Shown here: positions 5,118-50,773 of the stretch, one piece after another
Layout: each line of letters begins with the position of its first letter
Position numbering within the stretch: position 1 is the stretch's first letter
Assembly: GCA_030062745.1 (NCBI GenBank)
Contig: CP099841.1
Coordinates: 5,216,423 to 5,280,422, forward strand
Length of the DNA stretch: 64,000 nt
Direction: 5' to 3'
Origin: Capitulum mitella
Taxonomy: Eukaryota > Arthropoda > Thecostraca > Pollicipedomorpha > Pollicipedidae
Program-made: the position numbers and the translations under genes
The notes under the pieces: model-generated
The model's input: the letters and a program-made list of their open reading frames with translations, nothing else
What the model was told of the DNA's origin: nothing
Databases searched by the model: none

Positions 5118-5130
5118 ACCAAGATGATGC

Positions 5131-5425
5131 AGAGGCCTGAACAGGGCAGCATAGACCGAGACGGGGAACAGCAGAGGCCTGAACAGGGGAGCAGAGGCCG
5201 AGGCGGGGACCAGCAGAGGCCTGAACAGGGGAGCAGAGGCCGAGGCGGGGAACAGTAGAGGTCTGGACAGGGCAGCAGAGACCGAGACGGCTAACAGCAG
5301 AGGCCTGAACAGGGGGAGCAGAGGCCGAGGCGGGGACCAGTAGAGGTCTGGACAGGGCAGCAGAGACTCAGACGGGGACCAGTAGAGGCCCAGAGACGAC
5401 CAGAGACCGAAACAGAGACAGGTTG
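5131..5425. repeat. 42-bp minisatellite
   Basis: Units of the type agaggcctgaacagggg... start at 5131, 5173, 5215, 5257, 5299, 5342 and 5384: spacing 42 except one of 43, where aggggg replaces agggg. A degenerate tail of cagagaccg motifs runs on to about 5575. The long minus-strand frame here (14-residue repeat) is a by-product of the 42-bp period. Confidence 0.92.
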
Positions 5426-15437: not shown

Positions 15438-15483
15438 ATGAAGGCCCTTGCGTTGCTGGTGTTGCTGGTGGGATCTGCCATTG
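15438..15483 (+). CDS. Membrane-protein gene exon 1: signal peptide
   Basis: Forty-six bases code for MKALALLVLLVGSAI plus the first base of a Gly codon, followed by a strong donor (G|GTGAGTG). The hydrophobic core and small residues near the end are typical of a cleaved signal peptide. It lies directly downstream of a CpG-rich stretch that probably contains the promoter. Confidence 0.7.
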
Positions 15484-18400
15484 GTGAGTGTGACAGAGCG
15501 GCAAAATGTCTTTTTGCACATCGCAGCATAAAGTCTAAAATTAGGCAGAACCCGAATGAAAATGATGCATAGTTTAGTATTGCCCGATGCATATGCCTCC
15601 AGCAAGCAAGAACAAAACATTGAACAAAGCTTTGTAGTCTTCGTATCAGTCTTCGTCCGTCCATCCAGGTTTATCGTTTTATCTCCCAGACCGCAGATGA
15701 CCAGTTCATATACGAGGTTGTGATAAATGTTTTGAAATTACAATTTGCCGCCAAATTTGGTGTATGCTGAGGTGTTTGGTACACTCGAGGCTGCGACAAC
15801 GTGAGCATATTCACAGTATGCGGAATTTATCAAAACAAACATTACCCTTCCTAGTCGACAGCAAATGACTTGTCCAGAGATAAACAGGCACAGGCGATAC
15901 GCGTTCTGGGTGTTGCGTTTGATACGAATAACCAGGGAGAGAAAGGTTTTGTGTTGTTTAAATTCTTCAGTGCCAAAAGTTTGGTGAATTAGATAACACG
16001 GCAGTTAATCGTTCTTAGCTTTTATTGATTTGACGTTGTCATGTGGTCGGAATTACTCAGAGCTAATTTACTCAGTGTCACAAGGTTTATTGCATTATGC
16101 AATACCGCAATTAACCTTACCTTTTATTGACTTTAACTCAGCATGCCAACGGGATTACTCTAACGATCTTTTTTTGGCACATTTAAAATTACAGATAATG
16201 TGAGTGATTAGTGGCTAAGACATATACCTTCTTTTATTCCTTGATGATTTTACTGTTTCCGCTAACTGAGTTTCACGAAGGAGTTCCAGTAATCAGCAAA
16301 TTGTTGCAGATTAGATCCGAGAAAGACCTAACGACAGACTCGTTCAGTTGAAACTAATACCTTTAGTGATGGCTCAGAAGAGGTACTGATGCATCTAAAA
16401 ATAGAAACCACGAATACCTAAGGCGCCCACGCAGCTATGAAAGCTTGAAAGGGCCCGAATAGTTGGGGTATCCTCGATAACGCAGCAAGAAGCGGGTGCT
16501 TTATGTAAAAACGTGTCATACAAGTATATTAGGCACTCAGTTACTCATCCTTAAAATCGTTTCCTGAAACCACCTAGATGAATTGTTCGCCAGTATATTT
16601 ATTTGTCAACTTCTTTAGCTGGATTACGGAACTTTGTGGGAATGTTCCACGTACATCCTGCTTTAAATATAGATTTCCTAGCTGTAGACCTGTGCTTTTT
16701 TTTATAATATGTCCCCTTCCTTTCCCTTGTCTGCGAAGAATCGTTGTCGGACTGTATCATTTTTGCGACTGTCGGATTGAATCATTGCTCCGGAATGTAG
16801 AATAATTTGATGCAATTTTTATATGCCATGCGAGCTGCAGCTGTTAATTTTGGATGTCATTTTCCGCTGCTGTTAGCTGGTGCAACTGAAGTGACGCAAT
16901 ACAGATAGCGCAAACCAGCAAACGTTGGAGAGAATGTTTGTTTCTTGGTCGATGGTTCAGAGATTGGCTTTGCTAATGTGAAAATGTGCATGATAATGTT
17001 TTTAAAACTTGCTTTTCGAAAAATGTTTAAAGGACTCGGAAGATGTAATTGATTAAAAGCTTCATTCTGCAGTCTTTCGCCGATACACAGATCTGTGCGG
17101 ACTAATGAACGCAAGCTTTTATTGTTTATTGTTCTGCACCCACTCGTGGCACCATGCTCACACGGAAGAATGTTGGAAATCGTTTCAGACCTTCGTAAAT
17201 GTAGATTTTTAGGCAAAATTACTATTACATATCGGTTTCTAAGACCGCAGATCTCAATTCAAATTAAGTGTTAAAGTGTAGCATTTCCTGTCACAGGATC
17301 ATGACAAATTTTTGGACATGAGATAAAATACCAAAGTGAGCATTGGCTGACCAAGCAGGCTCCAGATCACGGCCATGTCAGTTCTGATCTTATTATTTTT
17401 ATTTTGCGTGACGTATAGCGTATCGAGGCGAGTGTTCTGGGTTTTAAGTTTGACGCACCTGCGGTTTTCTCAGAGACATAAATCCTTCACAAACAATTTT
17501 CAAAACTGCCGGGTATGTTTGAGCCGTTGATGAAATCCTTAAGATAACGGAATAGCTCTTGAAGTTTTGGTGGACCAGCTTTACCTTTACCATTAATATT
17601 TAATAAAAATGTATTAGTTTTTCTTTCATCTTGGCATAAGACCAAAATAACTTAACATGATAATGCACCGTTCTGCGGCTTTTTCCTTCTGATGCAACGT
17701 GGCTCGTGACTTCCCGATAGCGCGGCTTTGCTCGCGGTCTGGACCGAGTGCGTTCCTGACCAGACCATGTGTAATGCCGGGCGGGCGGTAACTGACGTCT
17801 TTCCACCGCCTTTTACCGGGATTAAACCGGAGCTGAGGGGATCAGGAGAGCGCCCGGTCCGGAGCGGCGCACTTTCATTTCGTCCGCACGGAACGCGCCG
17901 CAAAAACAGGCAATTGCGCCTGATTCGTGGCCGTGTCAATCTGATCGGCGGCGTCACGCGAGCTGTTTAGCCGCCTCTGGCCGCGCCGGCCGTCCTCTCG
18001 CTGTCCGTTCCAGTCGAGAGCTCGAGTTTGTCCGGTTCGCGCCGGGTCCCTCCCGCTGCGGGATCGGTTCATGATCGTCCCTCCGTGAGGTCCGGCCGCG
18101 GGCGACAGCTCAGCTGGTCTGGTCAGGGTTTCTCACTCTGTCTGACTGGGTCAGAATCGCTACCTCTGTGTAGTCGTGCCGGTCTGATCATGACAATGCC
18201 ACGGAGCAGCCCGGCTCATGCTTGCCATTCTGTCATCGAGTATGTCTGAAATGTCGCCCGGCGTCTGGTGCAGAGAATACTCACACCGCGTTAGTTTTCA
18301 GCATCTGTTTTTGCTCGCCTGGCGTGAGGAAACGTAACTCTGCTGTCAGGGCCGCCCGGTGATTCCATGGCTGTGTAGGACGCTGCTGATCCTGAGCGTG

Positions 18401-21400
18401 CTCATCCAGACCAGACTTGCGGACGCTTGTTAGTCGGCCGACACATTTTTCTTGCAATGAGTGCGCCGGGCCCACATGTGGGCAAGGCGGCTGTCATTAA
18501 ACATTGCCTTTGGTGCTGAATTCGTTTGTCTTTGAAAAATGTGGCAGTAAAACCGCAAAACCTCGGCTGTTTATCTCGTTTCAGACCAAAATCAGCTCAT
18601 TCTTATGTTCCTTCTGTATTTGAACGCTTCTGTCTCGACTTGCTTCTGCACCGTGCCATGCCGATTTTACATGGCCGCCACTTTATATGCACCAGGAAAG
18701 GAGACCACAAAATGCTAGCGCAAAAGTGCTGGAGCTTGCTCATAGTGCATACTAAGCAGATGTCATGTGTTTTTATATTGGAATGTCCGCTGAAAATGTG
18801 TTGTTTCGATGACAACGTATTTAATGAAATAGCTCGAAGATGTTGCCGATTTCGAGGCGACTTGACGCGTCCTCAATACAAGCAGAAACATCAGCATTTG
18901 TAATGTTCTGTTGAAACTAAGCTAACCTGAACTGAAATGCTTGATGATAGGTAGCGTTTCTTAGCATTGATTTCCACTCCATCATTTGCTGTCGTAGCCT
19001 TCACGTTGACATCTGCTGGACTTACAGCCGACATGGAAGGCTTTGTTTAATGGCTGCCTCCCATTTTAGGCTCCGGTATTCAAAATCCTGGAATGACAGA
19101 TTTTCTCCTGGCTTGGCGCAGGTTTCCAACTACCTCTGGACGTTGAGCCTGATTTGCCACTCTCTGTGGACTTGGATTTGGACGCTAAGGAATACTGGGA
19201 GCTGATTCTGGACTGGCTTAAGACTCGTTTATCTCAGTCTGGTCCCGGAAAAGTTCTCATGACAAAAAGTAAGTGGGTTTTGAATAAGAATGCCTGCCAT
19301 GTCGTCACATTTGTCAGATACTCTCACAATGAGGATGTCATGGAGAAAGGACATGCATGCATTTTGGAGGACAATGCATTTTGCAACTGGGATGTCTTTG
19401 CCGAAGCTGTTAAAGTGGCCTTATCTGTGCGATAAAAGTAATATTAATCCCACCTGATTACACTGGAATCGCACTGATTCGTATTTCTCACGATGACAGC
19501 TAAAATTTGTTCGAATGGAATGCCGGTCATGGATGAACATTCCCAAGTGCCAGAGTTCGCTTTCTGGCGACAGTTTAGGAGCTCAATGCATGAATACTCT
19601 GTGCAGTCATGAATGCGCTTCACGAGAAGTCCGTGAGTCCGATGGAGCTGAGCCTTTACTGTGCTCAGTCTGCCTCTGAGTTTGTCTATCTGGACCCGCC
19701 GCTCCCCGGCGCGTGCACAGCGCGTTCCGTTGAAATAAACAGCGTGGCGGGCGTCTGGCAGTCATCAGGCGGTGCGGCCTGCCGTTCGGCTCTGAATAGC
19801 GCGCATTGTTTGCAGGAGGTGCTCGGGGCCGCTTGCGTGTCATCGTCTTTTGGGATTTTGTAATGCAATATGGGCACCGGAACAGTCACTGCCATTTGAT
19901 GTTATCGTTGTTTCTTGCTACTGCACGTAAGTGAAAGTATTTGAAGAAAATGGCAATTTTCCTCGAATACCGTTACTCCCACAAAAATATAATCAGGTCA
20001 GCAATCACTCGCGTGTCAGACTCTTTCTTTTTACAGTTACCTTCTCTAACCGTAGGTCATCTAACACAGCCGATGCAGGGGCACCAAACAGCTGTACGCT
20101 CCAGTTCTCGAGCATAAACCATGCAGAAACAGTCGCACTCCGTTGCCCGGCTCTTTTGACGCGTTCACGGTGTGCCAGATCTGAGATCAGATCCAGACTT
20201 GCGCGCCATCAGAAACAAATCGCCCATCAGAGCACAGCTGTCCGCCGCCGCCGGGTGGTGATCGACACGTGCGCCGCCGCGACGTCCAACGGTGCAAAGG
20301 GCGGAGCTGTCCAAAGGCCGACAGTGTCGAGGAGCCGCGGGTCCACCTCGCAACAGCCGGCGGAGACTCATCTGGAACGTGGGCTTGTCCTCAAGCTCAC
20401 CATCAAACTTTCGGTATTTCATGGTCGAGGAAATAAAAAGAAAGGCATCGGCGTCCAGAACTTTTGCAGAAATGCCTCCTATTCCTAGCCCTTTCACGGC
20501 TACATTTGTTTTGGATTCTCGCCATGGATGTATTTTCGTGACGCCTGTTATTGTCATCAGGACGCCACAACCGCGCGAGATCCATCCTGTCGGCGGCCGT
20601 CAGGCTCCCACCTGTTGTCATTAGGGTACGGCGGGGAACGGATCCGCGTTTTAGTCGTTCTACCCGCGATCCGCAGAGCGGTGGCGCGCCGGCGGTCGCG
20701 CGCCACCCAGTGGCGAGCGTCACGAACGCCGCAGGACGCCGGTCGGAGCGCCACGAACGCCACAGGACGCGCGCAGCAGGCGCCGCGGCACCGATTCTAC
20801 CCGCTCTCTGCCGTCGTCATTAAGGGTCATTAACGCCGGAGGTCCCGTTTGGAAATGAACCACCGGTCTCTTGTCCGTCTTCATTACGGTATTTATTTGC
20901 GCTTTTGCCGCTTAGGAAACAGTTACGAGGCTTTGCATCTGGGCTGATGTCCATGCATAATATTCCATCATTCACGTTAAATGTCATTAATTATCATGCT
21001 ATATGGACGTAGGGTATTTTAATTAAGCATTTAACTGAAGCACGTAATTGAAAATGCAAAGAAACGAGGGCACGCTGATAATGAAAAACTTTCAATCCGG
21101 TTGGCAGCCGAAATGTCCGACCACAATGTACCGGGTGTTTCAAAGAGAACGTCCACATTTTAGCTGTGTCAGAGAGGTGTGTATGACTCTCGTGAAAAAT
21201 TTTGTGAATCAAAAGCACGAGCGTGGGGCTTCCGTCTTGTATATGTTTTATCAGAACCAAGCATGGTGCTGCTAAACACAGGGATAAAACTCAAGTTGTC
21301 CGTTTATAACGGACAACAAAGTCTGTCCTTTCGACGCATTGTCGCTTCCGAATACTTTACAAAACCCGAAATGCACCTCACTGTAAGAAAATCCTTCGGG

Positions 21401-24400
21401 TGACCGAGGAATTCTTTCTGTTGGATTGCATTCACAACCTTTCCATGAAGCAAAGTGGCCGAAAAATGGCAGAAATGATGCAGCCAGCCTCATTAAGGTC
21501 AGGTCGGCTCTGGACAACAACCCTTCAAAGTCCGCCAGGAACATCGGCCAAGAAGTCGGAATTAGCTCCAGCTCAACCTGGCACATCCTTCGTGACATTC
21601 TCAAACTGACCCCCTACAAGATTACTGTTTTCCAGACGTCAGCTACAGTTGACAAGAAACTGCAACTCAGTTTCTGCAAGTGATTTCGTGGCAAATGCCG
21701 CGCCGATCCGGAGTTCCTGAATAACATCTGGTTCAGCGATGAGGCCCACTTCGACTTGGATGGGGTCGTCAGCACCCAGAACTGCAGGATCTGGGCGTCT
21801 GAGCGGCCGGATACAATGCGGGAGAGTCCTCTGCATGGCTCCAAGGTCACTGCCTGGAACAACAGCGCCAGAGGGATCATTGGACCCTTCTGGTTCACAA
21901 ACAAGGACGGCACCATGGACGCCATCACAAAGGAACGATTCACAAGGACTTTTGGCAAGTTCTGGGCTCAGCTAGAGAGACCACGACTATCACCCGGACC
22001 GTGTCTGGTTCAAACAAGACGGCGTCACCCCACACACGGCGAACATGAACCTAAAGAGGCTTAAGAGACATGTCAGAGCCCGTGCCGTCGGCCGGAAGAC
22101 ACTTCACCCCTGGCCTGCTCACTCACCGGGTCTGACCCCTCTAGACTTTCACTTGTGAAGTTTCCTGAAAAGCCGAATGTATCGGAATGCTCCAGAAGAC
22201 CTCTGATAACTTAAGAGAACCGTCACGTGTGAGAAGGGGCATATCACTTAAGAGACATGCCCCAAGACCATCGGAGAAGATGAGAGTGGAGCTAGGCGTT
22301 CAGCGGAACGGCATCCACCTAGACCATGTCCTGTAAATTTAGTATGTTTACCTTGTCTCCAAGTCTTTCATGCTGGCTAAAACTTTCACTCACGTTTTCT
22401 GATTCCAACAGTGTAATAAACTGGACTCTGCGATAAACAGTTTTGACTACAGGAGAAAGAAAATGCGGACATTGTTTAAAACACCCTGAAGTTTTTGGCC
22501 TGCAAGCATTTCTATGACCTACATATATGACAATGCTGAAAATAAAGTTTAAAGGCCTTTTACCGTCGTCAAAAAATATCAGAATTTTCATCAGATGGTG
22601 TCCATCGGTAAAAATTAGAGGAGGACGATAACGGAGGGCCATGAATCCTCTGTAACTCGAGAAGCTTAAGTTTCAGCTCAGTGGCGTGTCATCAAAGCGA
22701 AAGACTTAAAAGTGGCTTTTGCCCGCTCCATTAAAAACGTTCTTCAGTTGCCGACATGTCCGATGCCAACTGACTGGAACACACCCGTGTTGAGTGCAAG
22801 TCAATGTCAGTACAGAAAATGACATGCACATAACGACGAGCTGGGGCATGCATCGGTTTCTTTCTCGTGTATTTTGCCGCCTACTTCCCTTGACCTTTCA
22901 TTCCCAATGTTGTCGAGAAGACAGGTCCCCACTGCATAGACAGGGCGGCAGTAGAAATTGGCGCATTCAGGATGTATCAGGTTTGCTTCTCACTTGCTCT
23001 TTTTCACGGACGGCCTCATCGCCACGGCCGACAGGACCTGACCCCCAGCTCTGGCTTTTCAGGTCGGCAGACCACGACCAGGGGCCGCACGGCCGTCGGC
23101 ACCCGCAACTACATGACCGTCCGGCAGCCGGACACCAGCATGTCCGCCATCAGCGCCATGGCCAACCTGCTGTCGATGCGCGGCGTGACCATGCAGGTGA
23201 CAGAGGGGCTGCCAAAGAAGGACGGCGACGCCACCCGCCTCCCTCGCAGCTCCATTGTGGACGGCAGGAAGGTGGTCAACAACGACGTCACCTCGCAGAT
23301 CGCGGACATGATCGCCAGGCAGCTGCTGGACGCGGGCGTGACGGCCGAGGATCCTGGCCGACTTCATCGCCAACCAGACGCGCCGGACGCAGGACGTCGG
23401 AGACGAGCAGTTCCCGCACGACGACGGCGGCGCCGCCACCGGCGGGTCCGCCGACGCCGAGGTCTCCGAGTCGGGCGAGGTCGACGACGCCGACGGCGTG
23501 ACGGATGGGAGCGAACCGGCCGCCAACGGAGGAAAGGCGCCGGCGTCTCTCGCGTCGCCCCGCTACCCGAAGCTGCTTCGGGCGCCGGCACCGCCGCCGT
23601 CGCCCGGGGGCAGCGCCCCCGATGTCTTCGGCAACGGCACCGACTACTTCGAGTGGCTGGAGGAGATCTTGAAGGAGGTGAAGGACAGGATGGACAGAAG
23701 CGGAAGTACGGCAGATGGCACGGCCCTGGACGAGAGACCGAAACAGATGGATGGGAAATCGACCGATGACGACGTAGACCGGCCGAGTGACCCTGTAGGA
23801 GAGCAGGGCTTCGAAGCCTGGCAAGAGTCCGAAGATGAACATGGTGGTTTTGACAGCATTCCGAAAGCGGTGCCCATGATTGTCATGTCCGGAAATACTT
23901 ACATAAAGGATATTGGAAACTTCAGAAACATCTATTCTTACGGATCACTGCCTGTCAAGGTCAAGACCATCGAGCCGAATGGCAACGACTCCGGCTTGGA
24001 ACTCGATAAGTCTGAAACGGATGACAGCAACGCCTCCGAAAACAGCGGAAAGCCTCTCCAGGCACTACGCCTCGAGTCCAGTAAGAGGGACGGCAACTCA
24101 CGCAGGAGAGACTACATTAAATCCCGCAGGAGAAACGGTCGCAATGGCGGGACGGATCGTCCCGAATCCAGGAAAACGAGACGGCAACGCGCGTCAGAGG
24201 GACCACCTTCTGTCCAGCAGCGCGCGCAACAGCAAGGTGCACGGACACGACGATGGAGACACCACCACATATCACAGCGCGGTCCATGGCCATGACGACG
24301 GAGACAACAGTGGCGGTCCCATTCACGACGACGGAGATGATAAGGACGACGGTCCTGTCCATGGTCATGATGACGGAGACAGCGGCAGCAGTCATCCAGT

Positions 24401-26063
24401 CCATGGCCATGACGACGGAGACAACAGCAATGGTCCCGTTCACGATGATGGAGATACCAAGGACGACGGTCCTGTCCATGGTCATGATGACGGAGACAGC
24501 GGCAGCAGTCATCCAGTCCATGGCCATGACGACGGAGACAACAGCAATGGTCCCGTTCACGATGATGGAGACAGCAAGGACGACGGCCCTGTTCATGGTC
24601 ATGATGACGGAGACAGCGGCAGCAATCATCCAGTCCATGGCCATGACGATGGAGACAACAGCAATGGTCCCGTTCACGATGATGGAGATACCAAGGACGA
24701 CGGCCCTGTCCATGGTCATGATGACGGAGACAGTGGCAGTAATGGTCCCGTCTACGACGACGGAGACGACAAGGGCGATGGTCCCGTCCATGGCCATGAC
24801 GACGGAGGAGACCCAAGAGAGCGCCCTGTTCACGGCCACGACGATGGGGACGACGGAAGCGACGGACCTGTTTACGACGACAGGGACCCCATGGACGATG
24901 GTCCCGTTCATGGACATGATGATGGAGGCAGACCAATGGAGCGCGCCGTCCATGGACATGACGATGGAAACAGCAGGAACAGAGGCCCTGCCCACGACGC
25001 CGGGGATGCCAAGTTTGATGGCCCCGTTCATGGACATGACGATGGAAACAGCAGGAATAGAGGCCCTGCCCACGACGCCGGGGATGCCAAGTTCGATGGC
25101 CCCGTTCCATGGACATGACGATGGCAACAGCAGGAATAGAGGCCCTGTCCACGACGCCGGGGATGCCAAGTTCGATGGCCCCGTCCATGGACATGACGAT
25201 GGCAACAGCAGGAATAGAGGCCCTGTCCACGACGCAGGGGATGCCAAGTTCGATGGCCCCGTCCATGGACATGACGATGGCAACAGCAGGAACAGAGGCC
25301 CTGTCCACGACGCCGGGGATGCCAAGTTCGATGGTCCCGTTCACGGGCATGACGACGGAAACAGCAGGAACAGAGGCCCTGTCCACGACGCCGGGGATGC
25401 CAAGTTCGACGGCCCCGTTCACGGGCATGACGACGGTGGCTCTCACTCCCGATCTCTCCTGCGCGCCAGCGAGGGGAAGCGGATCACCATGACCATGGTG
25501 AACGTCTCGCTGGCCGTGCTCGGCTCGGCTGCTGCCGTGTTGGTCGTGCTCGTCCTGGTGCACGGTGCTAAAAAGAAACGACTTGGCTTCTTCAAGAGGG
25601 CAGGTACGAAACTTGGGTGTAATTGAGCTGACTGGGAAATGTGACAATGATGAGCGTAGTGCTTGTTCTGAAGACTGCATTTCTGTCAGCTAGGTGAAGT
25701 AATAATGCAAGGCATACTCGTGTGTCAAAAGTCATAGTCCTTAGGCCGAAGTCCAGTTGCGATACTCTGAGCTTGAGAAGTCTGCTGAAATCTGCGCAAA
25801 GGTCTTTCCTTGTCTCACATGTTCCCAATGTCATTACAAATTCGACTCGGCTGTGATTGAAACTGTTTTGTGCGAAACGAATGTGTCTAAAACTTCACCG
25901 GTAGGAAACGGTACTCATTGGCAACGCGAGTCAGACGAGATTGCGGTGTTTCAGAGAATGTTTCTCATTCTTCACTGACCTATCGCCGTTGTTATGATGA
26001 TCCGAACTGCGTTCTACTCACAAACCCACCTCTTCTTTGATTGCAGACTACATCATGGTTTGA
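15438..26063 (+). CDS. His/Asp-repeat type I membrane protein (4 exons, unrecognised family)
   Basis: Four exons (15438-15483, 19122-19268, 23063-25603, 26047-26063) join with GT-AG sites, all in phase 1, to give about 915 residues once three single extra bases in exon 3 are discounted. In order: signal peptide (residues 1-15), acidic ectodomain with helix-like segments EYWELILDWLKTRL and DYFEWLEEILKEVKDRM, N-glycosylation sequons NQT, NGT and NAS, an Arg/Lys-rich stretch with dibasic sites (about 405-445), 19 HGHDDG motifs in tandem repeats (about 456-855), one transmembrane helix (about 876-896), a KKKR stop-transfer and a tail ending DYIMV. I recognise no family. Metal or mineral binding by the His/Asp repeats at the cell surface is inference from composition only. 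The ATG has A at -3. The frame is broken at about 23350, 24173-24176 and 25107. A candidate AATAAA lies at 26593. Confidence 0.72.
15484..19121 (+). other. Intron 1 of the membrane-protein gene
   Basis: This 3.6-kb intron is mostly AT-rich with one CpG-rich block at about 17.68-18.10 kb. A 125-codon open frame at 18526-18903 has no recognisable content. I see no other gene, RNA or clear transposon in it. Confidence 0.55.
19122..19268 (+). CDS. Membrane-protein gene exon 2
   Basis: The exon lies between an acceptor (ggcgcag) and a consensus donor (AAAA|GTAAGT), is 147 bp long, phase 1 to 1, so it fits exon 1 and exon 3. It starts GFQLPLDVEPDLPLSVDLDL and continues with the amphipathic EYWELILDWLKTRL and ends LMTK. 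The open frame reads on to 19435, but the donor is strong and exon 3 joins in phase, so I take the continuation as intron. Confidence 0.65.
21131..22488 (+). mobile_element. Decayed mariner-type DNA transposon
   Basis: Starts at ccgggtgtttcaaagagaac after a TA and ends at an imperfect inverted copy (...aaaacaccctg), about 1.36 kb. Inside, scattered frames match the arthropod-type mariner/Tc transposase: a helix-turn-helix part (ARNIGQEVGISSSSTWHILR, LTPYKI), IWFSDEAHFDLDG with the first catalytic Asp, NCRIWASERPD, WFKQDGVTPHTA with the second Asp, and SPGLTPLDFHL before a stop. Several stops and shifts break it, so it is a non-coding relic. Confidence 0.85.
21426..22334 (+). pseudogene. Mariner-type transposase remnant
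   Basis: Stop codons after LQLSFCK (21681), after LDFHL and in the C-terminal third, plus at least one frame change near 21975, break the frame. The final residues, VQRNGIHLDHVL then stop, resemble the usual C-terminus of this family. Inactive; any intact relative elsewhere in the genome could still mobilise the ends. Confidence 0.75.
23063..25603 (+). CDS. Membrane-protein gene exon 3: ectodomain, HGHDDG repeats, TM helix
   Basis: The exon runs from the acceptor cttttcag to the donor GCAG|GTACGA. It is 2541 bp, with phase 1 at both ends. Three frames are needed in turn: frame one to about 23350, frame two to about 24175, frame three to about 25107, then back to frame one to the end. Each change equals one extra base (in GAGG, AAAA and GTTCC), and three extra bases restore the exon phase. 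The protein text flows across each break: GVTAE/ILADFIANQ, DRPESRK/RDGNARQ, FDGPV/HGHDDG. The last part codes for VSLAVLGSAAAVLVVLVLV, a membrane span, then AKKKRLGFFKRA. Confidence 0.72.
24239..25440 (+). repeat. Coding tandem array: 117-bp block then 78-bp block
   Basis: Block one has a 117-bp (39-residue) period, seen as starts at 24360, 24477, 24594 and 24711, with residues of the form HGHDDGDSGSSHP, HGHDDGDNSNGP, HDDGDTKDDGP. A transition zone follows (24777-24950). Block two has a 78-bp (26-residue) period, HGHDDGNSRNRGP then HDAGDAKFDGP, with starts at 24951, 25029, 25108, 25186, 25264, 25342 and a partial unit at 25420. All spacings are 78 except 25029 to 25108, which is 79. The repeat lacks stops in several frames on both strands, so long antisense open frames here are shadows. 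Confidence 0.92.
26047..26063 (+). CDS. Membrane-protein gene exon 4: C-terminal micro-exon (DYIMV stop)
   Basis: The acceptor (ttgattgcag) is in the right phase; the 17 coding bases complete an Asp codon and add Tyr-Ile-Met-Val before TGA. The call rests on phase, acceptor quality and proximity (443 bp intron), not on homology. Were the exon 3 donor not used, the protein would read on to 25626 and end in KLGCN. Confidence 0.5.
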
Positions 26064-26592: not shown

Positions 26593-26598
26593 AATAAA
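26593..26598 (+). terminator. Candidate polyadenylation signal AATAAA
   Basis: First AATAAA found downstream of the TGA at 26061-26063, about 530 bp away. Distance is plausible for a 3' UTR, but nothing else confirms use. Confidence 0.25.
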
Positions 26599-29026: not shown

Positions 29027-30009
29027 GTAATTTTCGTGATATCTAAAAAAGTAGACAACGGTACCAGCTTGAAACTTTCAGTACATTTCCAAGTGTCACA
29101 TCTGGACACCTAAAGATGCAAATTTGTTTTCATGGCCTGCCATGGCCATGACAAAATGATATTGCAAATGTGACTGTGTCTAAGACTGCTTCCATCTGAT
29201 TCAAATTTATGTGTGCTTTGAGTATACAAATGAGTTGTAAGATGCTAGTACTTGGCGATACATATCACTATGCAATGGCAGGTCAACATCTAGTGCCCTT
29301 AACATAATATTATAGTTCAAAACAATTTTGTCGATTTATTTATGACTGAATGACATCTGCATCATTCTTTTCGAACGGCGATTTTATTATTGACCAAACA
29401 CGCATTTTTCGAGACTGCAAAAGTTTTTCAGAAAGTCAAGCAGTTTTTTTAGGTCCCCTGCCCTTAAATGGGTAGGCAGGAGTGCCCTTTTATGCCCATG
29501 TGATCCAGTTACGTCAATACCAAACCTGAACTCGGGTTGCGGAATAATGTATGATTTGATCAAACCGATGAGGGAACTCCCTAGACAGTGCGTCGTATGG
29601 TACTGAGCTCATTTGACCTCGGACTATAACCTGTACCCGAACAAAAATATTGACAACGTTGGTATGCGCGATACGCTCGAAACATCGAAAACATTTTTGG
29701 CTGGGTGTGAAGGACAGATGATGGCATAGTTCTCTTCCTTAGCAATAAGCACAGCATACAGTAACTTTGGGACCTTCACATGTGACCTCGCTGTTGTTAC
29801 AAAACGTAATTTATGGACGCTGTGACGTCGCATAATGAAGGACTTTTGATTGACCTTCCAATCATTCATATCAGTCCAGTATTTCAAGAGAGTCGTTGGC
29901 TCAGCTTCCCTCCCCCTCCTTCTCCACCTCAGCCAAACGTGTTACGCCGTACGCCATACGTCCATGCCGCGTTAATTCGCCCCCGACTGGGGGGGGGGCG
30001 GTTGAGCGC

Positions 30010-34600: not shown

Positions 34601-37600
34601 TTTGAAAACTGCAAGACACACTGACGCAAATAAACACAGCGTTATGGCGACATCAAGCTTGCTTTACGGGACGACCCCGCCAGCAGTCTGAAGTGACTTC
34701 ATAACTTTGGTCGTTAAATCCCCGCAATGCAAAATAACGAAATGCTTCAAAGGCAAAAGGACTTTACTCGTGACCTACTGATCATCACGAAGACGCCATT
34801 ATCGAAGAAGAGCCTGAATACATTTTTCTACAACCGCAAAGGTTCCAAAGTCTCTTCGAGGGACATGTTTTGCCTCGTGCCATTCGCTCACCTTAGTGAC
34901 AAACAGTTGGTTCAGCTTCAGTAGCTGGTCGCGGCACGAAAACGTTACTCTCCTCCTCTCCGCTGCACAGTTTTCCATGCCGTGAGTCTCCAAATGTCAG
35001 CAGTCTACCATCCTCTGACGGAAGCAAAACAACCCATATGACTCACTGTTCAACTTCATGCCAATTTTGCAACCGCAGTCTTGTCAGAAAACAAGACAAC
35101 TCTGCCCAGCAGGAAATTCCGTTGGCAGTTCTGTGGAGGTAAACCTATCAAGAAGTAAGTATTGCGTCTCAGTCTACGAAAATCACGTAGTGACCTACGT
35201 CAAGGTTTTTCATGGAGCACCGTGACGCAGACCACTTTGAAGTAAAATGCAACGAAAATTTAACCCAGCAGGCATCTCCAATACGTTCTTCATTAAGCAG
35301 AAATGTTCGAGGAGCAAGAACAGAAGGAGCTCAGAAGTTTATGTCCACCACATCTTTAGCGATTCCTCTACCATCAGGCAAGAAAATAATCATGCAAAAT
35401 CTGCTTACGGTCCCCCTTCTTCTTGTCCCTAAGTAAGTGGAAACGTTAAGTTTCTGAGGGTATTTGATGACGTTTGTGCTTCAATGGAAACACCTAAATA
35501 TTTCAAATGCAGGCAAAAAACATAAACATAGACAGGTGCTTTCCCATTGCAATTATATGCCCAACGATTGGTGTTTTCCACAAGTCAGAGCCGAAATGAC
35601 TAATCTCATTTAGTCGCGAAAAATTAACTTCTCGCAAGTCTGAAGATTTCACTTAAAACAAACTTAAAGCTCATAGCGATTTATGGTCCAAAACGCATTT
35701 CTGAGGAATGTTTGTACTAAAATTGGAAACCATGATTGATTAAGGTAACTTTTCGTCTACACACGGATGTAGAATGTCCTAGAAGACAGCACTGAATAAA
35801 AATACAAAATACGAAAAATTAAACCAATTCCAAGCCCAAACAATTTTTTATTGCATGTTATACTTCTCTTTGTTGAAGGTTATACCATCTCCAGAGGGCT
35901 GGTTGCGACGGCTTTACCAACTTCAGAAATCCAGCATTAACTCTACTGTGTTGCATGGAACGAAATTTTCTCAAAATATCTGTGGCCCGGGGCCCCACAA
36001 ACTCCAAAACGCTCCCACATATACACATGGCATATTGCTTACCATTTTCATAGGTTTACAGGACACCCTGATGTATGGAAAAGCACCAGGTATGCATGAA
36101 ATCGAATGGGCTGGGCAGATGCGTGTTTTTTTTTTGTATTCGTCCCGAAGTCAACCATGCGGAAATTTACTGTTGTGCTAAAATATTTCGCTAGGAAATT
36201 GTTTGTTGCCTTTAACATAACTCAAACATTATGACACATCAAATAATTGCCGAAACTGTACACTTTTACATCAAGGTGTGAGTAAAAACATATAAACTCA
36301 AGAATTAAGCATGATTCTCCAAGACATCCCAGAGGCTGTACTCCGTGAATCTTTCATTGTTCAGGCCCAGGCCGTCATTGCTCGTGGTCGCCGCCACTCG
36401 TCCAGACTCGCGGAATCCATGGAACGTGAGGCCAATCGATGCTGAATGCCATTCAGAACGGTCGGTGCTACCTTCCCCCACCCACAGCCATTGTGTAAGT
36501 AATCAATGAATGACGTATCTGGAGCCTGTCGTCGGCCGTTCCATGTCGCCCACTGCCGGTGCTGCCTTCCATGTCCACCGTGTTATTTTGGTACTGAGAT
36601 AAAGGCAGCATATTTTGAATATCTGTCGTAGAAATTTTACGACCAAGCACGCATGAATACACGAACATTTTATTAAGATAAAGGAAAAACAGATGAGCGA
36701 CTTGATAAAAGAAATAAGTTACAAGGTTCCTTAAGAAAAAAATGTTTGCAAGGAAGCAGTCGGGTGATGATTACCTTTTGGCTGCCTTGGTTACGGTATG
36801 GGTATAATCTAACGGTCTGCCTCCAACAATCTAGCGTTCGGTTAGTCTGTGATTGGCCGATATCACCTGTGACGATGGCTGAGTGGCAGTGGCCGGCGGC
36901 GATGTCCCTGACTCTCAGGTCTGCCAGCGGCAGCCGGTGGGGAGAGGTCACGCTGACTACTCTGCTGCCGAGACCCAGCTGACCGTGGTCTCCCGGCACC
37001 GAAGCAGAACACCTCTCCCGACTCTGGGGACAGGCGGACAGACCGTCAGACGAGGCTGAACTTCGGAGAACGGCGGAAACAGAACCGCCGCTTGACTGCG
37101 GGAACAGGCAGCACATCTTTTACATGGGTCGGAGTACAGTACCTCGAAACGGACACCACGCCGGACTCGGGACGTGGGCAGGGGAGCCGTCATACCAGAC
37201 CTGAGCACAGTGCGCATGAAACACATCTCCCGAATCTAAACCATGTCTCGCCTCCAAGTAGGTAGCTGCGCGGCCCGAAATCCCGGCGAAAAGTAATGCG
37301 AAGAAATCGTGCACCTACAGTGATCTATTACGCATTAAGCATGGCCGACGGCAGACTGGCCGTGGTTGTAAACTTCGTGTTAAACATTTTGTTTTTAGAC
37401 GCACGCTGTTCTAACGCGTTCTAAAATTCGACAAACGAAATGCAGCTTGTAGTGTTATAATCCACTTCGATTATGCGTTACTGGTCAAAACACTGTTTGC
37501 GGAATTTCAAAGACAATTTTACGCAAAATTCCTCTGTGGCCAACTTATTCTTGTCTTATTATCATCTGCTACGTGATGACTCGAGTAGGTGCAGGCCACC

Positions 37601-43600: not shown

Positions 43601-46600
43601 CCTGCCACAGTTTAAATCGGAATCACTGGCCACACCATGAAAATTTGACCTTAAAAACAGGCGTGAAGGTCAAACGAAAACCAAACGAAATTTTGGAAAA
43701 TGTGAATAGCAGAACATCACAGGATTTCTTTCTCATCATAAAGATATCCAGTTTTCGAAAATGTGGTGATCGGTTACTGAAAAAATGCACATTATCTCAC
43801 CAAGGGTTTGGCCAAAAATCGCCAAATCTAAAGATTTCGGATTGCTCTAGCGCAAAAACCACTAGTCAGACAGAGCTGAAAAGTGGAAATCTGACATCCT
43901 AGCTGCAGATTTCCCCGGACGAAATTTAATCACAATTTGAGACTAATGGTGTGTTACCCATTGGCCGGCTTATAATTTCCTTTGGTATGGAAAACTGCAT
44001 GCCAAAAATATACAGAGTTACATTCTTGGCTGTTGTCAATATTGCACGGTTCGATCGGGCGCAGGTTTCGGCTGGGAGCCGCCAGCCGGGATCAGACCGC
44101 CTGTCAAGATCTGGAAGCGGTCGCGGATCTGACCTGGCTTAGCTGCTCGGGACTGCGTGCATTTCTGTCGGCCAGCAGCAGCGGACGAACCCGCGTCGTT
44201 TGTGTGATAGAGCATCAATTTGAAAAGAAACCAGAGGAGCAATTCGCCGTGAATGGCGGGGCGATTTGTGATGAACAAGCAAAATTTTCACCCGAAGTAA
44301 AAGGTGCTCATGTTCGTATCGACTGAATGACCTGATCACCCAACCGAAAGACGCAGAATCAATCGCTGAAAGAAAAGAAGTCGACTTATGGTCGGAAGCC
44401 ACTTCCTGATGGCCCGGTCAACAAAGTCGACCCTGTTAAACGCCTACAAAGTGTTAGCCGTCCAACGTAACTTTGCAACCACTCACCCGTGCTGACGTAC
44501 ATAAAAACAAAAGGAAACAAAAAGGAGATGTGGATGCCTTACACACTGAACGAAACACGAACTTCCGGCGATTGCTGGTGGGTGTCACCACAGCTCACAG
44601 CTCTCCATATGCTTGGGGAAGGGGAAGTGGACGTTAAAAGCCCACACTCAGTTAATCTCGAACCGGTGGACTCATGTGGCTTTTCCCAACCGTAATCGAT
44701 TGTCAAAGATGATAGAAACTCGGCATGCCACATTCTTGAAACTGCAAAATAATTTATAACGTAGCAGATCATATCAACGAGCAAGACAAACATCAAATAT
44801 GAGCGATCGACCATGACTGATTCGTCAGTTTGGAGACATTGTTCCTGCCGTCCTGGCAAGACGGACTCGAGCAGTCTCACCCCTCACAAGTTGGATCGCG
44901 GATGAGCTGGTCACGACTTGGTAGAGCGTCGTGTTAATCACCATATGTTCACGTCGTATCTTTGACGGCACATTTTCGGGGGAAAAATCAGTGGTTGTTC
45001 GGAACTACGTGACACCGAGCGAATTCAGGCATTTTGCAGTGTTCCAATGTAGCTAAAGCGAAATCGAAGATAAACAGAACGATCACGAAACATTGCGTAA
45101 CAGGGTTAAAGTTTTACCTTGGCCACCTGAGGTTTTGATAAGATGGAAAATAGGAACACTGAACACCAAAGTCATATGTACATTATGCATTTTGCATTAT
45201 ATTCATACGTCTGTACTGAGGGCAATAAGGGGTGCACATTCAGCTTCGTGTAGTTGCAACCTAAACTCAGCCCTCAGAAATATCACACTGAAATTCTTTA
45301 AGGGACGGACGATTGATAACCCTGATGTATGAGAAACCATGAAAAGGATTGGTGAGCATCAATGCAAAGGGGAGCTGGATGGGTCTGCGGGGCAGAACTC
45401 ATTTTGTATCTAATCACTCATCATGAGAACAATGGAACTGATCTCAACCAGTGGAAAAATTTTGAGAGCAAAATGCCGTAAGGCCCGAAAAAAATAAAAA
45501 TGACCCAGACTTCAGACTTTGTTGTTTTATGACGTATTCCTGTGACGGATAACTATGACAGTTTATAACAAAATGCGAGCGCTGATAGCTGAACTGAACG
45601 GTAAGGAAAATTTGACCACCCGCAACCGTTTGGTTGCGAAGTTAAACAGCAAAAATCTTCACTACTTCCCCCAACCAAGTACTGGGTTCAAAACTGCTCT
45701 TCTAAATTCCAGTCAGCGATGCTGCAGTGAGCACTGTACGGCCGGAGGAAACCTCTCTGCGATGTCGTCACCACCATCCCTCACCTGACATCAGCCACAC
45801 CCCCGGAGCCTTTCCAGCAACAGCCGCGCACGCCGGCTTTCCCGGGGCGAACGGGGCGGCAGAGCTCATCCAGCCCACGGCAGAGCTCTCCCAGCCCACG
45901 GCAGAGCTCATCCAGCCCGAGGCGAGGCTCAACCGGCCCGCGGCCGAGCTCACGCAGCCAGCGGCGGGACTCACCCAGCAGGACGAGCGTGTGCTGACCA
46001 CCGCAGGCCACCCTGGCTATGTCCTGCAGCTCTGGCACCAGCGCCGGACGGTTCCGGTTCTTTCGGTCGCCGACCCCCAGCTGGCCCTCATCGTTCTCAC
46101 CGCACGTGAACAACTCACCGGCGGCTGGTGGGGAGATCTCGACGTCAGGGTAAATACTGGACCTGATCTGAGGCGTGGCTCACGAAACACCGGCCAATCG
46201 AGGTTTATGCAACTGGCAGAAAGTTGGACATTTTCGGTCACTTTTCAAACATCTGACCACATGGCATCGGTTTGGTGTGACCTTTCAAAACTATGGGTTC
46301 CACATAACATCCGTTCATATACATCAGGACTGCACACCTGGTGAGATTTCAAGATGATTTTTTTCCAGCACAGGGGCGCCACAGGCAGAAACCACCGAAC
46401 GCCCTCACCAGTGACGAACGCCGTATGCCGGTAGCCGCAGCTGACGTTCACAATCTCCTCGTCAGATGGCACCAGAGTGGGGAAGCAGGAGCCGGGAGAG
46501 TCGCCCAGGCCGCACTGGCCCTCGCTGTTGCTACCCCAGGTGAAGAGGCGACCATCAGCTGGCGGGATAGGCAAAAGGCCATGACCTGGTCGTTGACTGC

Positions 46601-49600: not shown

Positions 49601-50773
49601 ACGGAAGCACAGCAGTAGGTGAAAAAATGCGCCCGCTATCTTTTTTCACTTATGTTTTGCCTCCATTAGTCAGACGTCTTTGGATCTTTCGACCCACATC
49701 GTTGGCGAGACCAGAGACGATTTTCACTATCTGCCCAGTAGGCTTCATTTTCCTCACCAGCTGTTACCATCTTACCTGATGTGACCGATGTAGGGGTAGC
49801 AAGAATGCGATACGACTAGACTTTCTGACTGGTCCGGCGCTAACAGATGGGTTCACAGCGCGGAGAAAGTTCGGGTCGTGCTACCTTAGCAGTTCTGTAT
49901 GTGTTATGGAGGAGCTATACAGCACAAATGACCTTTGTGAATCCAAAATTTCTCTTCTAGGCAACTCGTGACGTGCACGCAACTTATCCGCTTTGTTTTC
50001 ACAAAGCCTTCCTCATGAAGCCTGCCATATCGTTGGCCGTAAATTGGAGAGTCCCGTAACACAGCACCAGGACAAATCACGCTCTCGCAAACCGCTCCAG
50101 ATATAGACGTGCAGACTCTGTTTCGCCACAGCGGACGGGGCCTCAGCGTCTTAGACAACAATCTCCGAAAATACGTCACATGGCGTTGACCTCCCTCCCC
50201 TCTCAATCTCCCTCTCTCTTCTGCTCTCGTTTTTCCTCTCCCGCCCGTCGAGAACATCTCACCTGCGACGACGACGGTGTGCTCGTCGCCGCACGAGCAG
50301 GCCACGATCTTGTCGTTCTTGATCCAGAACCGGGACGCCTGGTTCTCGGCGAACCGACTTCGGCCAAAGGTCAGCACAGCACCGGTGTCTGCCAAGGTGG
50401 TCAAAAGGGGTCATGTGTAAAGTCACGACGTGTCGCGACGTCATTTCAGTGAGCAGTGACACCCGTAAATAACCTAAGGTAACGTGGCAACGCTCGCTGA
50501 CTAAACGAAGACATGGAGTAGCGATCAACTCGATATCGTTTAACTTATGAGTTCGTTCATTGCATGCAGATCTTAACTTAAGAGCAAATGTTTGAAACTG
50601 CTCAGTCCTATACGCAAATTTCTCCAGATCTGGAGGATTCGATGCCCCGCACCACAGCAAACATTTGAACCAGTCAGCGCCCACCCTTGCCGACCCCTCC
50701 GAGACGAGGTCAGCCACGACCTCCTGTCGAGGCGTAACTCACCGGGCACCTCCGCCTCCGGCTCGGCGGCCAT
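31409..50773 (-). CDS. RPGR: RPGR-like protein: RCC1 propeller with charged C-terminal tail (14 exons found)
   Basis: Orthologue of retinitis pigmentosa GTPase regulator, which in animals sits at the ciliary transition zone and controls protein traffic into the cilium. Exons, 5' to 3' on the minus strand: 50773-50743, 50388-50263, 47734-47642, 47525-47463, 47273-47127, 46558-46409, 46124-45975, 37023-36867, 35014-34892, 34182-34036, 32994-32892, 32556-32484, 32253-32113 and 31602 onward. The start [20 protein letters not shown] matches the vertebrate N-terminus, and FAEN and SCGDEH match exactly. Seven blades are recognisable from repeated FG...GQLGLG...CG..H signatures. Junctions up to the last blade are phase 1. 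Exons 8, 9 and 11, possibly also 14, each hold one extra base. The tail is short and lysine/glutamate-rich, without the long Glu-Gly repeats of mammalian ORF15. The 3' end is uncertain. Confidence 0.9.
32113..32253 (-). CDS. RPGR: RPGR exon 13: lysine-rich tail
   Basis: 141 bp, phase 1-1, acceptor tcctttcag and donor AGAG|GTATGG. Encodes [20 protein letters not shown], then an acidic stretch [18 protein letters not shown]. Confidence 0.72.
32484..32556 (-). CDS. RPGR: RPGR exon 12: acidic tail
   Basis: 73 bp, phase 0 to 1, with acceptor ttctttcag and donor AAAAG|GTTAGT. Encodes [20 protein letters not shown] then APKK. Phases match its neighbours. Confidence 0.72.
32892..32994 (-). CDS. RPGR: RPGR exon 11: tail, one extra base or frameshift
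   Basis: Acceptor ctgctcag. In phase 0 it reads HEDEIQP then meets TGA; with one base dropped from the CCC run (32974-32976) it reads on as [20 protein letters not shown] to TELRANR and a donor CGG|GTCAGA. Length 103 is one above a multiple of three, as needed. The donor is not a strong consensus, so the 3' edge is less certain. Confidence 0.6.
33501..33959. mobile_element. hAT-like MITE, copy 1
   Basis: Bounded by inverted termini caggggcgtcgat and atcgacgcccctg. Contains ccaaatgtgggtttctcaa, the shared aaaaccggcagaaaatattg, and a 21-bp tandem repeat. No coding capacity. It lies in the RPGR intron between exons 10 and 11. Confidence 0.7.
33833..33925. repeat. 21-bp tandem repeat, about 4 copies
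   Basis: ggggcccaaaccaacattt plus two variable bases; unit starts at 33833, 33855, 33876, 33897 and a partial unit at 33918. Lies inside hAT-like MITE copy 1. Confidence 0.95.
34036..34182 (-). CDS. RPGR: RPGR exon 10: end of blade 7 and linker
   Basis: 147 bp, phase 0-0. Encodes [15 protein letters not shown], matching vertebrate LVACGGCHMVVFAAP, then a basic linker ending ARQRRREKE, comparable to the RMRRRERE stretch that follows the propeller in vertebrates. Confidence 0.83.
34892..35014 (-). CDS. RPGR: RPGR exon 9: first part of blade 7, one extra base
   Basis: Acceptor ttccgtcag and donor AAG|GTGAGC. Encodes [16 protein letters not shown] up to FVP, then after a one-base shift (about 34924-34934) [13 protein letters not shown]. 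Vertebrate RPGR has TFGDGRHGKLGLG...FIP...FIVK here, with the same exon end in phase 0. Length is 123, one more than the phase allows. Confidence 0.85.
36867..37023 (-). CDS. RPGR: RPGR exon 8: blade 6, one extra base
   Basis: Runs from acceptor tgtccccag to donor ACAG|GTGATA. It begins [11 protein letters not shown] in one frame and continues [12 protein letters not shown] through [11 protein letters not shown] in the next. Both ends are phase 1, so the length should be a multiple of three; it is 157. One base too many, in the GGG run at 36992-36994, explains both facts. Confidence 0.88.
38841..39037. repeat. 50-bp CpG-rich minisatellite, 4 copies
   Basis: Units start at exactly 38841, 38891, 38941 and 38991, each ending gcacgacacgagcgcg. 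Copies 2-4 are almost identical, the first is diverged. Followed by another 200 bp of CpG-rich DNA. Confidence 0.95.
39970..40192. repeat. Foldback hairpin, arms of about 103 bp
   Basis: Arm one (39970-40072) and arm two (40089-40192) are near-perfect reverse complements around a 16-nt loop. Shared blocks include ccatatatttcggacgattt and cttgaacactgg, and the outer ends are ttatgtga and tcacataa. A foldback MITE is most likely; transcribed, it would form a long hairpin RNA. Confidence 0.9.
40670..43960. mobile_element. Long-TIR element, copy A
   Basis: The left end (about 40.67-41.09 kb) is repeated in inverted, diverged form at the right end (about 43.60-43.96 kb): both share caaatt next to gagact/agtctc, aatctg/cagatt, and a block with ttttggccaaaccctt. 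The middle (41.9-43.5 kb) matches copy B in reverse. No intact transposase was seen, so it looks non-autonomous. A stretch at about 41.1-41.9 kb has no partner in copy B. Confidence 0.6.
45975..46124 (-). CDS. RPGR: RPGR exon 7: blade 5
   Basis: 150 bp, phase 1-1. Encodes [19 protein letters not shown] and ends [12 protein letters not shown]. An open frame continues past the donor but becomes repetitive and is not RCC1-like. Confidence 0.92.
46409..46558 (-). CDS. RPGR: RPGR exon 6: blade 4
   Basis: 150 bp, phase 1-1. Encodes [20 protein letters not shown] and ends [12 protein letters not shown], close to the vertebrate DGRLFMWGDNSEGQIGL...SCGYYHSAFVT blade. Confidence 0.93.
47127..47273 (-). 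CDS. RPGR: RPGR exon 5: blade 3
   Basis: 147 bp, phase 1-1. Encodes [20 protein letters not shown] and ends [11 protein letters not shown]. Confidence 0.92.
47463..47525 (-). CDS. RPGR: RPGR exon 4: second half of blade 2
   Basis: 63 bp, phase 1-1. Encodes [20 protein letters not shown], matching the ALKPEK...CGRNHT segment of vertebrate RPGR. Confidence 0.9.
47642..47734 (-). CDS. RPGR: RPGR exon 3: first half of blade 2
   Basis: 93 bp, phase 1-1, between acceptor tgtttcag and donor AAAG|GTAACT. Encodes [20 protein letters not shown] and ends RPSCIK. Confidence 0.9.
47735..50262 (-). other. RPGR intron 2
   Basis: 2.5 kb. Holds a CpG-rich block (about 48.7-48.95 kb) and an exon-like segment on the plus strand (48479-48654) that does not fit RPGR. 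Nothing else recognised. Confidence 0.6.
50263..50388 (-). CDS. RPGR: RPGR exon 2: blade 1
   Basis: 126 bp, phase 1-1. Encodes [16 protein letters not shown] through [12 protein letters not shown]; the FAEN and CGDEH segments are diagnostic for RPGR rather than other RCC1 proteins. Confidence 0.92.
50743..50773 (-). CDS. RPGR: RPGR exon 1: start codon
   Basis: Ten codons, [10 protein letters not shown], then G|GTGAGTT. The ATG has G at -3 and G at +4, a good context, and the next exon completes an Asp codon to give [11 protein letters not shown], matching vertebrate RPGR. Confidence 0.85.

Follow-up and report, generated by a model that had tools for sequence, protein, structure and literature searches.

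A 64,000-nucleotide stretch of the genome of the thecostracan arthropod Capitulum mitella (assembly GCA_030062745.1, contig CP099841.1, positions 5,216,423 to 5,280,422; called the window below, and numbered from its own first letter) carries on its forward (+) strand, between 15438 and 26063, what is very probably a real gene, marked by a long array of the hexapeptide HGHDDG. Our principal finding is that this motif is maintained by selection on the protein and that, by codon-position tests, the array is coding beyond chance. The sequence and the codon-level evidence together also support a type I membrane architecture for the predicted product.

Selection on the HGHDDG motif

HGHDDG occurs exactly 19 times between 24240 and 25437 on the + strand (14 copies in one frame and five in another), which is the number given by an earlier first-pass annotation of this DNA, and it does not occur in any of the three reverse frames. 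The repeat array occupying this interval consists of the 19 long modules, which carry the hexapeptide, with 12 short modules between them (HDDGD four times, YDDGD and YDDRD once each, and HDAGD six times). The HGHDDG motifs are spaced 14-15 or 25-26 residues apart, and the periods reported by Tandem Repeats Finder include 117 bp and 78 bp, both of which are multiples of three (39 and 26 residues). One of the 19 cores directly follows the last of three frame changes described below and is severed from its neighbour, so the list of module patterns shows 18. A search for degenerate long modules with one or two residue changes returned none, the only near misses being the four short HDDG modules.

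When the 19 cores were compared with one another, 459 of the 459 pairwise differences fell on third codon positions; all six third positions were variable and none of the 12 first and second positions was, with a proportion of synonymous differences (pS) in the core of 0.8. The copies in this comparison were chosen by their translation, and the pairwise sums are not independent. The 78-bp and 117-bp families are defined by DNA period and are hence free of this bias. In the six copies of the 78-bp family, 10 of the 11 variable columns were third positions (P=0.00013), and the ratio of the proportions of nonsynonymous and synonymous differences (pN/pS) in the HGHDDG frame was 0.04; in the 117-bp family it was 0.12. 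For the 78-bp family one of the other two forward frames had 0 silent versus 61 changing differences and the other a ratio of 1.11, while the reverse frames gave 0 silent versus 69 changing, 0.16 and 2.15. Four of the five non-sense frames lack the third-position pattern, and the value of 0.16 belongs to the mirror reverse frame, which has third positions mirroring those of the sense frame. The spacers between the cores vary while the two His and two Asp residues of each module are invariant, and the motif is therefore what selection sees.

A second tandem array in the window (5129-5390, 42/84-bp units) was taken as a control. Its variable columns were distributed 3/3/4 over the three phases in the four in-register copies, which gives no codon-position bias in a small sample of 10 columns. 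In the fifth copy a run of G has slipped by one base; copies 5 and 6 are no longer in register with the others, and counts that include them are inflated (8/8/8 with five copies and 13/11/12 with six).

Gene model and frame changes

As read from the sequence, the supported gene model would have three exons and two introns on the + strand, where the first-pass annotation had proposed four exons. Exon 1 (15438-15483) would provide the ATG and the signal peptide MKALALLVLLVGSAI(G), ending in phase 1, and was chosen by splice score and hydrophobicity. Its donor scores 8.6, fifth of the 824 GT sites between 15400 and 30000, and the acceptor at 23063 scores 8.5, ninth of the 827 AG sites in the same interval; between them lies intron 1 (15484-23062, GT..AG, 7.6 kb). 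The first 23 kb contain 284 candidate first exons, 33 of them with a donor score of at least 4, and among these 33 the exon at 15438-15483 has the highest hydrophobicity (3.65), in agreement with the signal peptide of the first-pass annotation, which is a strong one. No other candidate combines a hydrophobicity of at least 2.5 with a donor of at least 8; the candidate at 19863 falls narrowly short (hydrophobicity 2.61, with a donor that prints as 8.0). Translation could also begin at the ATG at 22972, which lies in the open frame of exon 2 and would need no exon 1; this start is possible, with a weaker signal peptide (2.61 versus 3.65).

Exon 2 (23063-25603) contains the N-terminal part, an acidic middle, the repeats, the membrane helix and most of the tail, and was established from GC content by phase, open frames and the codon tests on the repeats. 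Intron 2 (25604-26046, 443 bp) has a donor of 8.0 and an acceptor of 10.6 bits. The latter is the second best acceptor up to 30000, as a site at 29933 scores 10.8 and would yield a different tail. Exon 3 (26047-26063), placed by sequence reading and splice scores, would complete the tail as ...RADYIMV with a stop at 26061-26063, and the short tail that had been claimed, which is basic, is confirmed to this stop on condition that exon 3 is right. The first of four AATAAA motifs up to 30500 lies at 26593-26598 (+) and is a possible polyadenylation signal by motif match. The summed splice scores of introns 1 and 2 are 17.1 and 18.6 bits, calculated with generic metazoan splice-site frequencies. 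Among 200 random stretches the median of the best sum was 11.1, with 68% reaching 9.9 bits and 1.5% reaching 17; the random stretches were far shorter than the 7.6 kb of intron 1, so 17.1 is less special than the 1.5% implies. Base composition was 48% GC, with an observed/expected CpG ratio of 0.96, values that in combination with the long introns point to an invertebrate.

Within exon 2 the reading frame shifts at three points, near 23347, 24173 and 25105, and because of these changes a direct translation of the sequence as it stands does not yield the protein. The first-pass annotation had treated the frame as unbroken and made no mention of them. GC by phase tracks the change at 23347 clearly (high third-position GC, in one frame and then in another) and the change at 24173 less clearly, and it is uninformative in the repeats. 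None of the exon 2 pieces contains an in-frame stop, and base composition gives P=0.00017 for an open frame of the length of the middle piece (275 codons). Past the third change, nine of nine variable repeat columns are still third positions (P=5e-5); the frame therefore stayed selected, and the break there is either recent or not real. Introns that would bridge the three changes were sought and rejected: the best sums among 139, 54 and 88 frame-compatible GT-AG pairs (the pairs for the third change being scored without a stop test) were 9.9, 9.1 and 3.9 bits. None of these exceeds the random median, and all fall well under the sums of the two accepted introns; a fourth exon thus finds no support. 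Each change adjoins a single-base run two to four bases long. Short runs of this kind are a usual site of errors in long-read assemblies, runs of two being weak support. Single-base assembly indels, rather than introns or decay, are most likely the cause of all three changes, with a young pseudogene as the second-ranked cause.

Elsewhere in the window, three pieces with RCC1 repeats lie on the - strand at 36676-37119, 45784-46179 and 49907-50410 (Pfam RCC1, E 6e-6, 5e-15 and 0.025, the last below the cut-off) and look like parts of one gene with large introns. The piece at 45784-46179 matches structures of UVR8, RPGR and HERC, and the text of the piece at 49907-50410 we take to resemble the start of RPGR. 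Inside intron 1, broken open reading frames at 21310-22158 (+) may derive from a mariner/Tc1-type transposase, which they resemble by eye; Pfam searches with four pieces of this region found no transposase and only sub-threshold matches, e.g. to a helix-turn-helix (E 0.005).

Protein architecture and comparison with known families

Behind the signal peptide, the N-terminal part (94 residues, 23065-23346) is basic (isoelectric point, pI, 10.8), with a predicted helix near its end that forms a block with a predicted local distance difference test (pLDDT) score of 81, and the middle (275 residues, 23348-24172) is acidic (pI 4.6), with four N-x-S/T sequons, dibasic clusters near its end and two longer helices in a low-confidence prediction. 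The acidic, glycosylatable ectodomain of the first-pass annotation is therefore accurate for the middle and not for the 94 residues that precede it. Single-sequence AlphaFold2 predictions of these two pieces had mean pLDDT values of 59.1 and 49.5, and the roughly 370 residues ahead of the repeats are probably disordered according to these models, low confidence on single sequences being weak evidence of disorder. No Cys is present in any of the five protein pieces. The single membrane helix that had been described, VSLAVLGSAAAVLVVLVLV (25504-25560), was recovered with a mean hydropathy of 2.82 over 19 residues, and it is followed by the basic juxtamembrane tail HGAKKKRLGFFKRA (25561-25603). 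Model charges calculated from generic pK values are, at pH 7.4 and pH 5.5 respectively, -56.6 and -23.5 for the first repeat piece and -8.3 and +4.2 for the second. The sequence KRDGN(S/A)R(R/Q)RD, basic and rich in dibasic pairs, stands at 24083 and, 91 bp further on, at 24174, with the second frame change falling between the two copies; judged by its sequence, it could serve as a convertase site where the ectodomain meets the repeats.

Searches of Pfam-A with four pieces and five sub-pieces (E up to 10) gave nothing above the cut-off, those of NCBIfam with the four pieces gave no match, and those of PDB sequences with three of the four, i.e. all but the piece with the second repeats and the helix, gave no credible match (one hit each, E 0.92, 3.1 and 0.78). 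Apart from a weak match to the Syndecan domain, treated below, the only Pfam matches were those of the second repeat piece to a PCF11 repeat (E 0.0018) and to DUF4218 (E 0.011); both were below cut-off and were judged to reflect composition. The 525-residue reverse open reading frame had no Pfam match. Scans of prokaryote and virus contigs confirmed no relatives (32, 165 / 21, 4 pattern matches), which says little for this gene, and the literature search returned no paper with HGHDDG and none on a tick His-rich membrane protein. The earlier statement that the protein belongs to no recognisable family accordingly holds for Pfam-A and NCBIfam, for the three pieces compared with PDB sequences and for the scans of prokaryote and virus contigs; the word "undescribed" is neither excluded nor established by them, and orthologues may exist under uninformative names.

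The closest analogues are HRC, the nearest in idea, and TGN46, the nearest in layout, and the tests run place the protein in neither. As described in PMC6171002, HRC has a signal sequence, 29-residue tandem repeats in which HRHRGH is joined to 10-11 acidic residues, a poly-Glu run and a Cys-rich C-terminus, with no mention of a membrane helix. The present protein resembles it in its signal peptide (if exon 1 is right), in joining His to acidic residues in tandem repeats and in entering the secretory route. It differs in its 26- and 39-residue HGHDDG units, in acidic runs of at most two residues within the repeats, and in having a membrane helix and tail in place of a Cys-rich C-terminal cluster. 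A store in the secretory lumen of the HRC kind, binding Ca with high capacity and low affinity rather than transition metals, would fit the combination of His and Asp within each repeat; the short acidic runs, the membrane helix and the Cys-free pieces all argue against it, as does the first repeat piece, which has no Pfam match at E up to 10, and we regard such a store as unlikely. TGN38 and TGN46 are single-pass, type I proteins. TGN46 spans the membrane, has a lumenal domain that is glycosylated and disordered, and depends on the YxxPhi signal YQRL of its tail for internalisation and return to the trans-Golgi network (PMC10928510). The probably disordered, glycosylatable lumenal part is similar. 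The tail here would end in YIMV if exon 3 is right, with that motif at the very end and on an inferred exon, and a His/Asp motif is not among the TGN46 features described there. No TGN38/46-type family appeared among the Pfam matches up to E 10, where the filters may miss short tails.

The remaining comparisons concern single features. Syndecan ectodomains are Cys-free and disordered and carry SG sites, and the present protein shares with them one helix, a short basic tail and a Cys-free ectodomain with SG sites. It could be a part-time proteoglycan, with glycosaminoglycan on SG sites near acidic residues and a tail that binds PDZ proteins: nine of the ten SG sites have Asp or Glu nearby, the YIMV end fits the rule for class II PDZ ligands, and the membrane region matches PF01034 weakly (E 0.04-0.07). 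With 13.6 and 14.3 bits that match stays below the cut-off of 25.2, and it covers the helix plus the beginning of the tail. None of the SG sites falls within the invariant motif, the second repeat piece has none at all, and a proteoglycan would leave the His residues unexplained. His/Asp repeats are not known from syndecans, and the conserved blocks of syndecan tails are lacking here. We consider the proteoglycan very unlikely. The tail also contains GFFKR (25585-25599), found once in the six frames of the window, which in integrin alpha subunits is a cytosolic motif next to the membrane; here eight residues separate it from the helix. Integrin alpha ectodomains consist of a propeller and Ig-like domains, for which the ectodomain pieces gave no Pfam match and no credible PDB match, and the GFFKR is possibly due to chance. 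According to a review (PMC13027442), METTL9 acts on HxH in which x is a small residue, G among them: it methylates the second His, both in disordered regions and in those parts of SLC39A7 that face the endoplasmic reticulum, and so lowers zinc binding. The enzyme tolerates most acidic and aliphatic flanking residues poorly, and HxH-rich regions of ZIP and ZnT zinc transporters bind zinc (PMC13027442). By analogy, HGH might be a methylation site that tunes metal affinity, as all 19 copies have HxH with a small x and one of the methylated stretches listed for human SLC39A7 includes GHGHD. The flanks are of the kind that the review gives as poorly tolerated: position +1 is Asp in every one of the 19 copies, and position -3 is Val in 18 and Phe in one. 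We hold methylation by METTL9 to be highly improbable; a search on METTL9 and arthropods gave nothing relevant by title and opening of abstract. In contrast to the multi-pass ZIP and ZnT proteins, which likewise have an HxH-rich region, the present protein has one helix and no transporter domain.

A possible metal-binding role

The reading that we put at about an even chance is that of a functional gene for a type I membrane protein, whose His/Asp repeat is a metal-binding module and whose frame changes are assembly indels. Several observations weigh against it. The 117-bp family, with four of its six variable columns (three copies) on third positions (P=0.1), is not significant alone, and because its mirror-frame pN/pS of 0.11 matches the sense value of 0.12 it cannot by itself separate the sense frame from the mirror. 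GC phase around 23780-23825 points elsewhere, the openness of the N-terminal piece is not significant alone (P=0.15), and three frame changes in 2.5 kb could indicate a young pseudogene. Exons 1 and 3 were placed solely from splice scores and hydrophobicity, and the YxxPhi end, which depends on exon 3, would arise by chance in an estimated 1% or so of cases. The invariance of the motif would also fit a protein-interaction repeat or a purely structural one.

A minisatellite without coding function, or an array whose coding frame is a different one, would agree with the alternative frames that are open across much or all of it (501 residues forward, 525 and 407 reverse) and with the low mirror-frame value in the 117-bp family; the pN/pS of 0.04 of the 78-bp family in the HGHDDG frame, together with the restriction of low reverse values to the mirror frame, makes this scarcely credible. 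A recently broken copy, in which the frame changes are real and the signal of selection is inherited from a working past, finds its evidence in the changes themselves; set against it are the pieces without in-frame stops, the third-position pattern that persists in nine of nine columns after the last change, and the position of every change at a short single-base run, and we judge it unlikely.

Zn, Cu or Ca could plausibly be bound by HxH flanked by acidic residues, and a pair of His and a pair of Asp that never vary amid varying spacers would fit ligand binding. We infer the metal or mineral role that the first-pass annotation had suggested, and likewise proton binding, the pH switch, the location and the function of the tail. 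The proposed protein consists of a signal peptide, a Cys-free ectodomain of some 370 residues (basic at its start, acidic in the middle), some 400 residues of repeats, a helix and a 19-residue tail. Its repeat, tethered to the membrane, would bind divalent metal ions (Zn, Cu, Ca) at many sites and with low affinity, two His and two Asp of each module being the ligands. The titration of His near pH 6-6.5 would loosen this binding in acidic compartments, and the charge of the repeats would change there as well. The polybasic tail, ending YIMV, would direct traffic of the protein between the surface and either endosome or Golgi, or else bring it to a PDZ protein. These elements can be combined in a novel type of membrane-tethered metal shuttle, in which a disordered His/Asp rod bearing the 19 identical HGHDDG sites loads Zn or Cu at the neutral surface, is internalised by the C-terminal YxxPhi signal and releases its metal on His protonation in acid compartments; we consider this quite unlikely, and if true it would mean that a cycling chelator, and not a transporter, takes up or detoxifies the metal.

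Every residue of the motif has been preserved whereas its silent sites have changed heavily, and this makes the array a clean natural example of a membrane-anchored His/Asp ligand with many sites. Should protons or partners be all that it binds, it would still show strong selection on a repeat that is probably disordered, and if it binds metal, it would add a tethered, disordered chelator to the known means of animal metal handling.
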